64,000 nt of DNA, taken from the NCBI GenBank assembly GCA_030431095.1, contig JAUIJU010000001.1, forward strand, positions 1 through 64,000, written 5' to 3'. Both the position numbers and the translations under genes were made by a program. The notes under the pieces are model-generated. The model was not told where the DNA came from and made no database searches. It saw only the letters and a list, made by a program, of their open reading frames with translations. Source of the stretch: Gammaproteobacteria bacterium. GTDB taxonomy: Bacteria > Pseudomonadota > Gammaproteobacteria > Xanthomonadales > SZUA-36. This document shows, one piece after another, positions 1-5,337 of this stretch (the first letter of the stretch is position 1; every line of letters begins with the position of its first letter).

Positions 1-159
1 TTTCAGGTGCAGGCCTCGCGCGGAGTTTTCGTCACGGACCCAGAGGAATCGGCCTTCGTCCAGGCGCGCCTGGCCGTGCAACCCCGAGACCGAGGGGTCG
101 TCGAGTTGCAGGTCACAGGTGGCCTTGCTGCCGATGGAAACGGTGCGGTCTGCGTTCAC
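1..159 (-). CDS. FHA-domain protein, N-terminal fragment (runs off the left edge; start assumed GTG at 159)
   Basis: Reverse-strand translation from GTG at 159: VNADRTVSIGSKATCDLQLDDPSVSGLHGQARLDEGRFLWVRDENSARGLHLK, an FHA signature (SIG-x-CD-x-x-LDDPSVSxxH). Open to the window edge; absent from the ORF track. Confidence 0.72.
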   Translation of the reverse strand, partial: MNADRTVSIGSKATCDLQLDDPSVSGLHGQARLDEGRFLWVRDENSARGLHLK

Positions 160-267
160 GGTTCTTTTGTCTGCATCCCTGGCTGGTGCCGATTTCGCCC
201 ACGCCGGAACTCGGCGGCGCGGACCCTCATGTTAACTGATTTTCTCACTGATCTCGCCGCCGGACAC

Positions 268-1206
268 CTACTGGGCAAGCGCCAGGAAGCCCCCGGAGTT
301 CGCGCGTGCAAGGGTCTCCATGAAGGCCACGGTGCCCTGGTATTTGAAGTAGTCCCCGATGGTCACGGTGTGAATTTCCACGTCGCCCCGATTCGCCACC
401 GTGATGGCCTGTGCCAGCGATCGTGGTGGAAGGTCGCGATTGAACACCGGATTGGGCAGTCCGTCACTGAGCAGGATCACGGCGCCGGCAGGGGTTGCGA
501 AGGCCTGTTCGAAGGCGCCGAGCATCGGTGAACCGCCGTCGAAACGATCCGCAAGACCGTTCACGAATTGCATTGCCTGTCGCCGACTGGCGCCGCTGAC
601 CCGCGCCAGTTCACCTGCCGCGGGCCAGTGGTGGTACTGCGGGCCGGCATCGAGCTGTTGGAAACCGATGACACCGAATTCCATGCCCGGTTGCAGGGAG
701 TCGAGCGCGCGGGACACCGTGTCGGTCACCAGGGTCCGGTGCTCGGCCAGGTACTTGTTCATGTCCACCAGCAGAACGAAACGGGTCTGCTCCGTCTGCA
801 GGCCAAGGAAACGGAAGGTCACCCACTGGGTGGGTGTGGTCTCCGGCCCTTCTTCCGTGGTTGGCGGCGGCGGGGGCGGTTCATGCAGCGCGGCCTGCAG
901 CTGGGCGTCGCGGGTCTGGACTTCGCTGGCGAGGATGGCTTCCTCGGCCTCCAGTTCCTGGTGGCGGGTCTGCGCGGCGCTCAGCGCGACCATCAGCCGT
1001 TCAACGCCCAGTTCGCTCTCGTCCAGGCGGGCGTCGGAACGTTGCGCCAGGGCCTCCAGGTAGGCCAGGTGCCCTTCGAGACGCACCTCCTTCTGGTAGT
1101 CGGGCATCAGGATGATGGTGATGATGATGAACGCGCCCATCGCCGAGGCGAACAGGTCGACTGCGGACAGGGAATAGACCCCGAACACGCGCAAACGGGT
1201 CCTCAT
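268..1206 (-). CDS. Membrane-anchored coiled-coil VWA-domain protein, degenerate MIDAS
   Basis: N-term TM (AVDLFASAMGAFIIITIIL), coiled coil, Pro-rich linker, VWA core FVLLVDMNKYL...VILLSDGLPN. Overlaps the upstream paralog by an ATGA junction. Confidence 0.85.
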   Translation of the reverse strand: MRTRLRVFGVYSLSAVDLFASAMGAFIIITIILMPDYQKEVRLEGHLAYLEALAQRSDARLDESELGVERLMVALSAAQTRHQELEAEEAILASEVQTRDAQLQAALHEPPPPPPTTEEGPETTPTQWVTFRFLGLQTEQTRFVLLVDMNKYLAEHRTLVTDTVSRALDSLQPGMEFGVIGFQQLDAGPQYHHWPAAGELARVSGASRRQAMQFVNGLADRFDGGSPMLGAFEQAFATPAGAVILLSDGLPNPVFNRDLPPRSLAQAITVANRGDVEIHTVTIGDYFKYQGTVAFMETLARANSGGFLALAQ

Positions 1207-2132
1207 CGCGATACCCCGACGAAGTCACCGTTGTTGAGCCGCGACAGGGTCTGCAGGAACAGCACCAGGTTGCGGTTGTGGGTGTAGTCGCCAATGGCCA
1301 CCGTGTGCAATTCGGTCTGGCGAAACTGGTTGCGGTTGGAAATGTTCTCGATGATGAATCCCGGCGGGCTGTTGGGTTCACCATCACTCATCAGGATAAT
1401 GGCGCTCGCCGGGTATTCCATGGCGGCTTGCAGGGCGAAATGGGTCGGCGTGCTGCCCACGAATTTTCGGGCCAGTCCACGGGTGAACTCGCGGGCCTGG
1501 TGCAGGTTGTCCGGTGTGGCGCGCAGCAATGACTCGCCGCCGGGAAACCGCCACAGCACCGGTTGTGGATTGCCCTGGTAGCCGACGATGGCGAATTCGT
1601 TGCTTTCATTCAACGGCGCAAGGATGTCGAGCACAGAACGGATCATCAGGTCCTGGTAATTGATCATGCTGCCGGACATGTCCACCACGATCACGAAAGA
1701 CTTCGATTCCGAGGCGAGCCCGAGGATGGAAAACTCCACGCCTTCGTCGAGGTAGACCGGCTCGGGTTCCGGCGGCTCGATTTCGTCCGGCGCCGGCACG
1801 GGTACCGGCAATTCCGCGATCTGGCGATTGAGGTCATTCAATTCGCTGCGCAGACGGGACAGACGCGCCTGCGCGCCACGATTGGCCTCGTCGAGCTCCT
1901 GCAGCTCGCTCTGCATTCGACGATGCTCCGCTTCCCGGTCCTCGGCCTCACCGGCAGATCGGCGGCGCTGTTCCACCAGGTCGAGGGTGCGCGAAAAAGC
2001 ATCCTCCGGACCCGCGTTGCGGTAGTAAGGGAACAACAGCATCATCAGCAGGATGAACGCGCCCAGCGCCGACGCGAACAGGTCGATGGCGGAGGTGCTG
2101 AAGATGGAGGTTTCCCGGTCCGGGGTTTTCAA
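1203..2132 (-). CDS. Membrane-anchored coiled-coil VWA-domain protein, canonical MIDAS
   Basis: N-term TM (AIDLFASALGAFILLMMLLF), coiled coil, Pro-rich linker, VWA FVIVVDMSGSM (DxSGS)...GSTPTHFAL...IILMSDGEPN. Confidence 0.9.
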   Translation of the reverse strand: MKTPDRETSIFSTSAIDLFASALGAFILLMMLLFPYYRNAGPEDAFSRTLDLVEQRRRSAGEAEDREAEHRRMQSELQELDEANRGAQARLSRLRSELNDLNRQIAELPVPVPAPDEIEPPEPEPVYLDEGVEFSILGLASESKSFVIVVDMSGSMINYQDLMIRSVLDILAPLNESNEFAIVGYQGNPQPVLWRFPGGESLLRATPDNLHQAREFTRGLARKFVGSTPTHFALQAAMEYPASAIILMSDGEPNSPPGFIIENISNRNQFRQTELHTVAIGDYTHNRNLVLFLQTLSRLNNGDFVGVSR

Positions 2133-2280
2133 ACTGCGGTGCTCCTGTGGGCCCGATGGTCATTGACAGCGGGCAGGCCGCCTATGTTCAATGCGGCATT
2201 CCGATTCCCCGGCCCGCAGCCCGGTTCCGGGCCCGGAAAGTGTAATCAATCCGTCCCGGGGGTTCAGCAAAGCCAGTCTC

Positions 2281-5200
2281 ATGACCAGGCGTTTCATTCC
2301 ATTCCTGGCCGCCCTTGCCATCGTTCCGGTGTTGGCCTCGCATGCCGCGGAACTGCCCGGTGGTGGTCTGCAACAGGAATACTTCGTTCGCCAGCAGGCG
2401 GACGAAGCGGTGCTGATTCGCGTGGACGGCCACGAAGCGGAATTCGAGTCGGCTGTATTCACCATCGACGGGGAGCGGATCATCGCCTCGGGCGTGCCGG
2501 CCAGTCGTATCGCACCGCTGTTCCAGTACGTTCCGGGTGCGCCGGACGACCGGCAACTGGATATTCGCATCACGGCGCCGCTGGTGACGGGCAACAGCCG
2601 TTTCGATATGGGCCTGAGTCGCATGAACGTACGTGACGACCGTTCCGCGCGTCTGGACGAGGCCTACCGCTGGCTGTCCTTCGGCCTGGAGTTGCCGCCG
2701 GCGGATACCGCGGCGAACTGGAGCATCAAGGTCAACGCGCTGCTCGGTGCGGCCAACGGCTTCAGGGGTTTTGGCATGGAAGAGCTGGAGCTGTGGTCAC
2801 GGTTTTTCGTCGCGCAACTGACCCTGCACCGGCTGGGCGACAATCATTCCGCGCTGCAGGCGGCCGAGGACCTGCTCGCTTCACCAGGCGCGCGGCGTCA
2901 GCCCGTCATTCGCCTGGCGACAACCCGATTGAAGGCTGAAGCATTGTCCGCCCTCCGTGGCGCCGGCGAACTGCCAGTGACGGCGGATGACTCTGCGGAT
3001 CCGGTGCAGGTCGCGGCAGCGGCGACCCGCGCACAGGCCATCCGGCTTGGCCAGGACTTCGAGCATGCCGAGGCGCTGTTTTTGTCCGGCAGGGATTTTG
3101 CAGCGCGTCAGCGCTACGCCGACGCGTTGCAGCGCTACCAGGACGCGCTGGGACTGGCGGTGGACATCGAGGCCGATGACCTGGCCACGCGCATTCGGGA
3201 AGACCTCGTGGATATCCACGGCAAGCAGGGCGACGTGGCCGCCACCAGTGAAGTCCTGCAGGCCATCGAATCCCAGCTGACCGAGGACGGCGCCAATGAC
3301 GAACTCGCGCAGAACCTGCTGGCCCAGGGTCGCATCCTGGTCCGCACCTACCGCTTTGACGCGGCGACCGAGGTGCTGCGCCAGGCGCTGGAGTTCGAGC
3401 ACAACAGTGCGACGCGGGACCAGGTGCGCCTGGCCCTGGCAGAGGCCGCCTGGGGCCTGGGTGATCTCGACGAGGCCTGGGCGCAGGCGCGGGCGGCGGT
3501 GGTCGATCCTGCAGGCAACGGCTGGCGGCGTGCGACCCCGGTGCTGGATACGGGCCGCGGCCTGGCCATCCTGGCCGGCGTAGCGCGCGTTCGCGGTGAC
3601 CACCGGGTCATGAGCGAAGCCCGCGCCGCGCAGCGCCGTACGCTGGACTCCGCCGCAGAACGCGTTTTGTGGGCCTGGGAGCGCGCGCAGGACGAACTCG
3701 ACAGTCGCCCGCCCGGGCAGTCAGCGGCACCCTGGCTGCGGCAGGTTCGCGACGGCGCGTCGGCTGCCGGCCTGTCATCTCACGGCCACCTGGCGCAGTT
3801 GTGGCTGTGCCTGCTGGGCGTGGACTGTCTGGCCGGCGCGGTGGACGCTGCCTTCCGGTCGTTGCGTGACGCCGCCATTCCACGCCACCGCGTGGCTGCG
3901 CGCTACCTTGCGGGCATGCTGCACATGCGCGACGGGCGGCATGCCGCGGCCGCGGATACGCTGGAATCCGGAGTGCGGGAACTGGTGTTCCTGCGCTACA
4001 GCGTTCCCGGGGTCATGGGCGACTGGTCCTGGCGCTACAGTGAACGGCTTGGCGAGGCCCTGCTCGACGCGCTGCGCGCCACCGGGGACGACGCGCGTCT
4101 TCTGCTGGGCCTGGCCCGGCTGCGCTGGTTGCGCGCCGCGAACGACCCGGTGGGCCTGCCGTTCGATCCTGCCGTCAGCGGCCTGGACACCGACAGCTTT
4201 CGCGCGCAGCTGGCGCGACGCCAGTGGCCTGGCCTTCAGGACGATGTCGCGGCGCTGGATCACGCCCTGGCCCCGCTGCTGACCGAGGGGCAGGGCGCGT
4301 TCGAATCGGCCGCCGACTTTCTGTCCCGGCCCGGGCTGACGCGCTGGCTGAACGCGCTGGAGGCGGGTGAGGCCGTGCTGGATTATGACTTCTCAGGTCG
4401 CACGGCCCTGGCCCTGGTAGGCACGCGTGCCGGCGTGGTCCGCGTCAGCCTGGGTAACCGGTCCGGTGTTGACGGCTGGCGCACGTTTCTTGAACAGGCC
4501 GGGGAACACGACGTGACGGCCCTGGATCGCCTTTCCGCGCGTTGGGGCCAGCGCCTGCTGGCTCCGCTGCGGGACCGCCTGCCGAAGCGTGTGTACCTGG
4601 CTGCCGGCGCACCGATGGGCTACCTGCCATTCGAAGCGATGGCCGGAAGCACTACGGGTCAGCGTCCCCAGTTCATCCGCCTGGCGGCCTTCCCGGCACG
4701 ACCTGCGCCGGCCGTGCGCCTGGACGTTTCGGTGTCCTCACAGGTGTTTCTCGCCGGGCAGCCGAGCGACTACAGCTCCGGTTACCTGGAACGCCTCGAT
4801 ACCGGCGCCGAATTGCGCGCGGTCATGGACCGTTTCGTCGGTCCGGGCCTGCAGGTGATCCAGGGCGCCGCCCTGCAGGCGGACGAGTTCGACACGCCTG
4901 CTTTCCGCCAGGCTTCGCTGGCGCACCTGGCGATGCCCGCGTGGCTGGACACCGATCGACAGAATCGGTCCTGGCTCGAACTCAGCGAGGCGCGTCGAAC
5001 GGAAGGGCGCGTCCGCCTGCGGCCCAGGGACCTGGCCCGCTGGCGCATGCAGGCGGGCCTGGTGGTGTTTTCACGCGCCGAAGCCGCGGCGACGGGGCGC
5101 GCGGTCAGGCCGCCCCTGGTGTCCCAGGCGCTGGCGGCCGGCGCCGGGGCGGTCCTGGTGACCACCTGGTCCCTGGAAGGCGATGGTCAGGATGCAGCGT

Positions 5201-5337
5201 CGGCAGCTTTTCTGGGGTCGTTCTACGCTGCCTGGCAGGCAGGGGCGCCACCCCCGGCGGCACTGGAGCGCACGCGCGATGCGACCCGTGAAGCCGGTGG
5301 CACGGACTGGGCGCGATACCAGATATGGGTCGAATGA
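2281..5337 (+). CDS. TPR-repeat protein with C-terminal CHAT domain (catalytic residues apparently lost)
   Basis: Signal peptide from M at 2281 (MTRRFIPFLAALAIVPVLASHAAE); TPR-like helices in the middle; C-term CHAT-type blocks 'GAVLVTTWSLEGDGQDAASAAFLGSFYAAWQAGAPPPAALERTRDATREAG'. Confidence 0.82.
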   Translation: MTRRFIPFLAALAIVPVLASHAAELPGGGLQQEYFVRQQADEAVLIRVDGHEAEFESAVFTIDGERIIASGVPASRIAPLFQYVPGAPDDRQLDIRITAPLVTGNSRFDMGLSRMNVRDDRSARLDEAYRWLSFGLELPPADTAANWSIKVNALLGAANGFRGFGMEELELWSRFFVAQLTLHRLGDNHSALQAAEDLLASPGARRQPVIRLATTRLKAEALSALRGAGELPVTADDSADPVQVAAAATRAQAIRLGQDFEHAEALFLSGRDFAARQRYADALQRYQDALGLAVDIEADDLATRIREDLVDIHGKQGDVAATSEVLQAIESQLTEDGANDELAQNLLAQGRILVRTYRFDAATEVLRQALEFEHNSATRDQVRLALAEAAWGLGDLDEAWAQARAAVVDPAGNGWRRATPVLDTGRGLAILAGVARVRGDHRVMSEARAAQRRTLDSAAERVLWAWERAQDELDSRPPGQSAAPWLRQVRDGASAAGLSSHGHLAQLWLCLLGVDCLAGAVDAAFRSLRDAAIPRHRVAARYLAGMLHMRDGRHAAAADTLESGVRELVFLRYSVPGVMGDWSWRYSERLGEALLDALRATGDDARLLLGLARLRWLRAANDPVGLPFDPAVSGLDTDSFRAQLARRQWPGLQDDVAALDHALAPLLTEGQGAFESAADFLSRPGLTRWLNALEAGEAVLDYDFSGRTALALVGTRAGVVRVSLGNRSGVDGWRTFLEQAGEHDVTALDRLSARWGQRLLAPLRDRLPKRVYLAAGAPMGYLPFEAMAGSTTGQRPQFIRLAAFPARPAPAVRLDVSVSSQVFLAGQPSDYSSGYLERLDTGAELRAVMDRFVGPGLQVIQGAALQADEFDTPAFRQASLAHLAMPAWLDTDRQNRSWLELSEARRTEGRVRLRPRDLARWRMQAGLVVFSRAEAAATGRAVRPPLVSQALAAGAGAVLVTTWSLEGDGQDAASAAFLGSFYAAWQAGAPPPAALERTRDATREAGGTDWARYQIWVE

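Follow-up and report, generated by a model that had tools for sequence, protein, structure and literature searches.

What does a cluster do in which a coupled pair of membrane VWA genes lies beside an FHA gene and a divergent gene for a secreted TPR-CHAT protein? This arrangement occupies positions 1–5,337 of a stretch of 64,000 nucleotides (the window) from Gammaproteobacteria bacterium (Xanthomonadales, SZUA-36; GCA_030431095.1, contig JAUIJU010000001.1). Position 1 of the window is the first base of its contig (C2), in a 3.2-Mb genome that is 87% complete and divided among 178 contigs. The operon that begins here probably codes for a proton-powered inner-membrane motor linked to phosphothreonine-reading proteins, a reading that draws on features observed directly: which genes are present, their conserved synteny, their motifs, the loss of catalytic residues and the order of duplication. 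The initial annotation, of two coupled membrane VWA genes with an edge-cut FHA gene and, divergent from them, a gene for a secreted TPR pseudo-CHAT protein, is borne out by coordinates and Pfam matches:

1–159, minus strand: 5′ part of the FHA gene, cut at the contig edge (about 140 aa in relatives; Pfam FHA 5e-6)
268–1206, minus strand: VWA2 gene, with transpore helix, coiled-coil stalk and VWA fold with degenerate metal site (Pfam VWA_3 1.1e-8)
1096–1176, minus strand: VWA2 transpore helix, SAVDLFASAMGAF, with the invariant Asp17 (12/12, alignment)
1203–2132, minus strand: VWA1 gene, TTG start, with transpore helix and VWA head with canonical metal site (Pfam VWA_3 6.3e-10)
1227–1694, minus strand: VWA domain of VWA1 (DMSGSM ... 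T ... D; Pfam match, residues 147–302)
2022–2102, minus strand: VWA1 transpore helix, SAIDLFASALGAFILLMMLLFP, with invariant Asp (alignment)
2133–2280, no strand: divergent upstream region common to the operon and the CHAT gene (open reading frame coordinates)
2281–5337, plus strand: secreted TPR pseudo-CHAT gene, 1018 aa (Pfam CHAT 3.8e-14, weak TPR matches; orthologues divergent beside VWA1 in loci L024 and L025)
4549–5304, plus strand: CHAT domain (Pfam, residues 757–1008; His882 kept, Ala933 at the catalytic Cys position)

The two VWA proteins are 34% identical to each other and share one architecture: a short N-terminal hydrophobic helix (SAxDLFAS), then a coiled-coil stalk and, last, the VWA head. 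Asp17 of this helix is invariant in all 12 transpore-helix (TPH) sequences aligned, and the N-terminus is an ExbD/MotB-like transpore helix. The metal site of VWA1 is canonical (DxSGS..T..D). VWA2 has DMNKY where DMSGS is expected, and Ser for Thr; all four of its orthologues have a degenerate site there. The AlphaFold model of VWA2 shows a VWA fold with a head pLDDT of ~90 and Foldseek matches to VWA structures in the PDB (5.5e-9). A tree places the VWA1/VWA2 split before the duplication of the cluster and separates both from the pairs of a broader family (100/99 split), with weak forks placing L031 and L034, two loci with only one VWA gene each, whose metal site is canonical. The transpore helix carries a VWA head in the window clade, L031 and L034, and a different, beta-rich head with a conserved DxDLxVxD pattern in L033, L035, L094, L103 and L109; L104 also has this second head, the start of its helix being cut by the gene call. 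The heads on the transpore helix are thus exchangeable between a VWA and a beta-rich domain. The beta-rich head has no Pfam match and may resemble DUF2135-type domains.

On the minus strand, an AGGAG ribosome-binding-like site is read upstream of VWA1, the VWA genes overlap as ATGA at 1206–1203, and the FHA gene most likely starts with GTG at ~159 (by alignment with L024), 108 nt past the VWA2 stop. The Pfam FHA match (5e-6) covers the first 45 of 67 domain positions, the contig edge cutting the rest, and the encoded protein is 66% identical to its counterpart in L024 (JAUHYP010000002.1), a gammaproteobacterial metagenome-assembled genome that is the nearest relative found (VWA1 84% identical, VWA2 79%). 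The VWA pair also lies beside FHA genes in L024, L025, L026 and L027, and this proximity is not due to chance, because the arrangement recurs. The grouping of two stator-like VWA proteins with an FHA reader in one conserved neighbourhood, as proposed initially, therefore stands.

The continuation of the operon beyond the contig edge is seen in L024, where the CHAT gene is divergent from VWA1-VWA2-FHA-MotA/ExbB, followed by a gene for a protein with signal peptide, trypsin-like, transmembrane (TM) and FHA parts, a gene for a protein with a kinase remnant, TM, repeats and FGE domain, and a gene for a secreted low-complexity protein; downstream of the last are two convergent genes with exported products. 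Contig C151 of the window's own genome has the same continuation (MotA 89–95%, TM-FHA 67% and kinase-FGE 79% identical). Aligned on L024, the window edge and the end of C151 are colinear and lie ~7 bp apart within the FHA gene, and we infer the C2–C151 join from this synteny, not from reads. The suggestion to look on the left flank for a MotA/ExbB-like channel and a kinase was thus well placed, a MotA/ExbB gene and a gene for a kinase-like protein being found on L024 and C151; a MoxR-type AAA+ partner, such as stands beside the VWA gene in MoxR-vWA ternary conflict systems, or another NTPase partner was not noticed around L024–L027, though not every neighbour was scanned.

The MotA-like protein matches MotA_ExbB (PF01618, Pfam 5e-12) and, weakly, TolQ structures in a profile comparison (E 0.006). 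Two threonines, T175 and T212, one in each of two pore helices, are invariant in 19/19 MotA sequences, and no ExbD gene is recognised next to the MotA_ExbB gene on C151 or L024. These features recall the predicted TPH-vWA/TolQ motors of PMC12204202 (Mol Biol Evol 2025, Fig. 4c,d; Idiomarina homologues), in which heterologous, Asp-bearing TPH-vWA gene pairs lie beside a tolQ-like gene with no tolR/exbD and with conserved Asp and Thr, the Thr forming a ring in the pentamer. AlphaFold 3 (AF3) models of TPH-vWA/TolQ complexes were presented there, and the complexes were regarded as possible force transducers driven by the proton motive force (PMF), of unknown function. The window core has the Asp-bearing helix on a VWA protein, the heterologous coupled pair, the tolQ-like gene without exbD and the conserved Thr, and by every sequence feature testable it is a member of the TPH-vWA/TolQ family. 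The motor idea is therefore not new, and the initial statement that the cluster matches no named system does not hold for its core.

The surrounding genes set this core apart. MotA-type loci were divided into a close family (17 loci, MotA 41–56% identical to that of the window's genome when its own clade is set aside) and a broader family (20 loci, about 25–37% identical). Scored with profiles built from these loci, the FHA profile being trained on some of the close ones, an FHA gene is found no more than two genes away from MotA in 16/17 close-family loci and in 2/20 broader-family loci; Pfam independently confirms the FHA domains in those close loci that were scanned. PP2C genes lie near MotA in L031, L034, L073, L103, L105 and L106, and kinase or trypsin-TM-FHA genes are common in the close family. 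The broader-family loci carry TPR, PEGA/FGE and a ~430-aa protein instead. Close-family loci occur in several gammaproteobacterial lineages, in 9/43 genomes of one order, and on one conjugative Rhizobium leguminosarum plasmid, the single plasmid found with the MotA protein; a plasmid search with VWA1 gave no match. The text of PMC12204202 contains no kinase, phospho or forkhead terms, and its single FHA match is FhaC. Within the literature covered, which was partial, there is no description of a phosphothreonine link to a VWA/ExbB motor, nor of a CHAT/VWA/FHA module. The link of the motor to kinase, phosphatase and FHA genes, found in 16 related loci, appears undescribed, unlike the motor core.

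Several neighbouring genes in these loci are recorded here. The Rhizobium locus (L094; NZ_CP125637.1, 148444–179055, plasmid pRlBT01d) has PP2C-FHA-kinase divergent from FHA-MotA and a TPH protein with a beta-rich head, and also codes for a 1610-aa exported protein, a VWA-TM-FHA protein and a second kinase. The ~430-aa protein (L080:8955-10241 and homologues) is conserved between MotA and VWA1 in the broader family; it has no Pfam match and, at its C-terminus, a weak FHA-like match (hhalign probability 46%, E 2e-4). Trypsin motifs are lost in the window clade and kept in L031, L034, L103, L104 and L108. At L040 (G000:C72:1410-3610), an FHA-TM gene is separate from a neighbouring trypsin-like gene, whose motifs (NYHVV, GMSGGP) look intact; this is an unfused form of trypsin-TM-FHA.

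A second copy of the cluster lies on contig C85 of the window's genome (L027) and on the same contig of the relative (L026), with the order VWA1-VWA2-FHA-FHA-trypsin/FHA-kinase/FGE-secreted protein and with a FadL-type outer-membrane protein as outer neighbour. Neither MotA nor CHAT is present in this paralogous cluster, and the genome has one MotA of this family, on C151, for two VWA pairs. The catalytic Lys, HGDIKPxN and DFG are all present in the kinases of C85 and L026, and all three are lost from the C151 kinase; the L024 kinase lacks half of its domain. Since C85 has an intact-looking kinase but no MotA, and C151 the reverse, a single pore and a single kinase probably serve both clusters, which we offer as a hypothesis only, because the genome is incomplete and codes for other kinases. 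Large exported proteins with a lipobox-like start and MORN-like C-terminal repeats adjoin both clusters (L024:18561-20645 and L027:2782-4734; 47% identity).

The CHAT protein is best seen as a lineage-specific accessory, possibly a periplasmic scaffold or partner. Its CHAT domain is recognised (PF12770, 3.8e-14), and the His–Cys dyad of a CHAT protease is absent: His882 is kept, and the catalytic Cys is replaced by Ala in the window, Ala in L024 and Leu in L025. The N-terminal stretch reads as a signal peptide, and the protein appears to be both dead and exported, as first proposed. The AlphaFold model was too poor to confirm the fold (pLDDT 56) and was not used. CHAT flanks the VWA pair in three related genomes (window, L024 and L025; CHAT identity 31–58%), and the outer flank differs in L025, so the CHAT-VWA adjacency outlasted local rearrangement. 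Neither the paralogous cluster nor any of the other close-family loci contains the gene. A role as core component was considered and set aside when a class-wide search found no match at 1e-8 in any other of 369 class genomes. The claim that the neighbourhood is one functional unit accordingly survives for VWA and FHA, with MotA and the kinase added and CHAT as an accessory. Directly beside the L025 CHAT gene lies a MotA/ExbB/ExbD/TonB/TPR-like force-transducer cluster (L025:1563-6793, JADFKH010000015.1; names by reading).

In the explanation that we consider best, and rather probable, the window is the start of an operon for a PMF-driven VWA motor gated by threonine phosphorylation. Five copies of the MotA-like protein would form the pore of a 5:2 complex of the MotA/TolQ/ExbB class, and the two VWA proteins would form a dimer rotating in it by means of their Asp-bearing transpore helices. 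Projecting into the periplasm, the coiled-coil stalks and the VWA heads, of which one has a working metal site and the other a degenerate one, would pass force to a partner in the envelope. A component would be phosphorylated by a transmembrane kinase whose FGE-type sensor lies in the periplasm, FHA proteins would dock on the phosphothreonine, the state of the motor thus being set from the cytoplasm, and PP2C would reset phosphorylation. The dead kinase, trypsin-like and CHAT domains of the operon may act as scaffolds, and the intact-looking C85 kinase and the C151 pore may serve both clusters. Motor activity, 5:2 stoichiometry, phospho-gating and the sharing between clusters are predictions, and envelope maintenance, adhesion or motility are guesses at the cellular role. 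A periplasmic force transducer gated by threonine phosphorylation is nonetheless the best reading of the sequence evidence.

Some observations weigh against this explanation. The only PP2C_2 found in the genome lies in a type VI secretion system (T6SS) locus, and some close-family loci (L105, L107) have no TPH gene within reach. With the genome 87% complete, gaps in the assembly may hide a second MotA or a PP2C gene at the locus, and the motor assignment draws on homology and on the published AF3 models. More tentatively, and with a good deal of doubt, the loci may represent a distinct subfamily of ion-driven periplasmic motors that is directly phosphothreonine-gated, has swappable heads, serves two VWA rotor pairs with one pore and one live kinase, and uses dead enzymes as scaffolds. 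There are few ion-driven motors of the envelope, and how they are controlled is little understood. If the reading is true, phosphothreonine signalling switches a motor, the exchange of heads makes its output modular, and a formerly unexplained VWA/FHA/CHAT cluster becomes a testable machine.

The same genes could instead encode a PMF-dependent envelope sensor, in which the VWA heads respond to ligand or strain by altering the pore or an FHA scaffold, and kinase, FHA and PP2C relay the change inwards. The heavy signalling content beside MotA in 16/17 loci, the dead enzyme domains and the exchangeable periplasmic heads, which resemble sensor modules, would suit such a device, but the conserved Asp and Thr correspond to residues of energised motors and the known members of the superfamily do mechanical work at the envelope; we regard the sensor as unlikely. 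It is very improbable that the cluster is a decaying duplicate whose work is done by the C85 cluster. Four domains lack catalytic or metal-site residues (kinase, trypsin, CHAT and VWA2) and L024 has lost half of its kinase domain, yet all frames are open, VWA1 and VWA2 hold the high identities to L024 given above, both the degenerate VWA2 (59% identity) and the CHAT without its Cys (31%) are retained in L025, and the family's only MotA gene sits in the window operon.

A conflict or anti-phage role, as first suggested, would pair a Zorya-like stator with a caspase-like CHAT effector. The ZorAB defence motor is of the stator type, conflict systems can contain CHAT domains, and the sporadic distribution and conjugative plasmid copy would fit. 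Against this, a PADLOC scan of the four window proteins gave only weak coiled-coil matches (best E 0.006), CHAT is exported, lacks its Cys in three species and is not present in most related loci, the annotated neighbours include no nuclease or NTPase effector that was noticed, and phage records contain no homologue of the MotA protein. The suggested role is thus unsupported, and we give it little credence. A paper on NTPase-vWA conflict systems has no MotA, ExbB or CHAT either. There is an even slighter chance that kinase and FHA belong to the T6SS threonine phosphorylation pathway, whose logic (kinase, FHA, PP2C and periplasmic activator; PMC6082577) is similar and whose T6SS in this genome has its own FHA and PP2C on C4. 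That same location speaks against the idea: with the T6SS and its separate FHA and PP2C genes on a different contig, the window operon is not that pathway's locus, and no Tss genes were noticed in related MotA-FHA loci. Identity with the T6SS locus was likewise rejected, tss genes being on C4 and not seen on C2, C151 or C85. The C4 locus (L029; G000:C4:1-12000) has TssA/B/C/J/K/L/M-like genes and a TagF-like gene (names by reading), with FHA and PP2C by Pfam.

The phosphothreonine-gated motor that we favour can be placed among known systems by its parts. With the T6SS threonine phosphorylation pathway (PpkA, PppA, Fha, TagR) it shares a transmembrane kinase, a PP2C, an FHA reader and a periplasmic input domain, but here there are no Tss genes, an FGE-type domain is fused to the kinase and the neighbour is a MotA-type complex. 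The CHAT protein resembles secreted TPR-CHAT proteins in its N-terminal signal and in its TPR repeats followed by a CHAT domain, and differs in that all three members lack the catalytic Cys. Like the MotAB/ExbBD/TolQR/ZorAB superfamily, the putative motor has a MotA_ExbB Pfam domain and an Asp-bearing TM helix in the partner, whose head is VWA or beta-rich rather than ExbD/TolR or peptidoglycan-binding, and phospho-signalling genes are attached. The closest likeness is to the TPH-vWA/TolQ motors of PMC12204202, in the heterologous TPH-vWA pair, the tolQ-like gene without tolR/exbD and the conserved Asp and Thr. The present loci form another subfamily (MotA ~25% identical to broader-family sequences, for example L080; VWA tree split 100/99), which adds FHA, PP2C, kinase and trypsin-FHA genes and in which the heads may be other than VWA.

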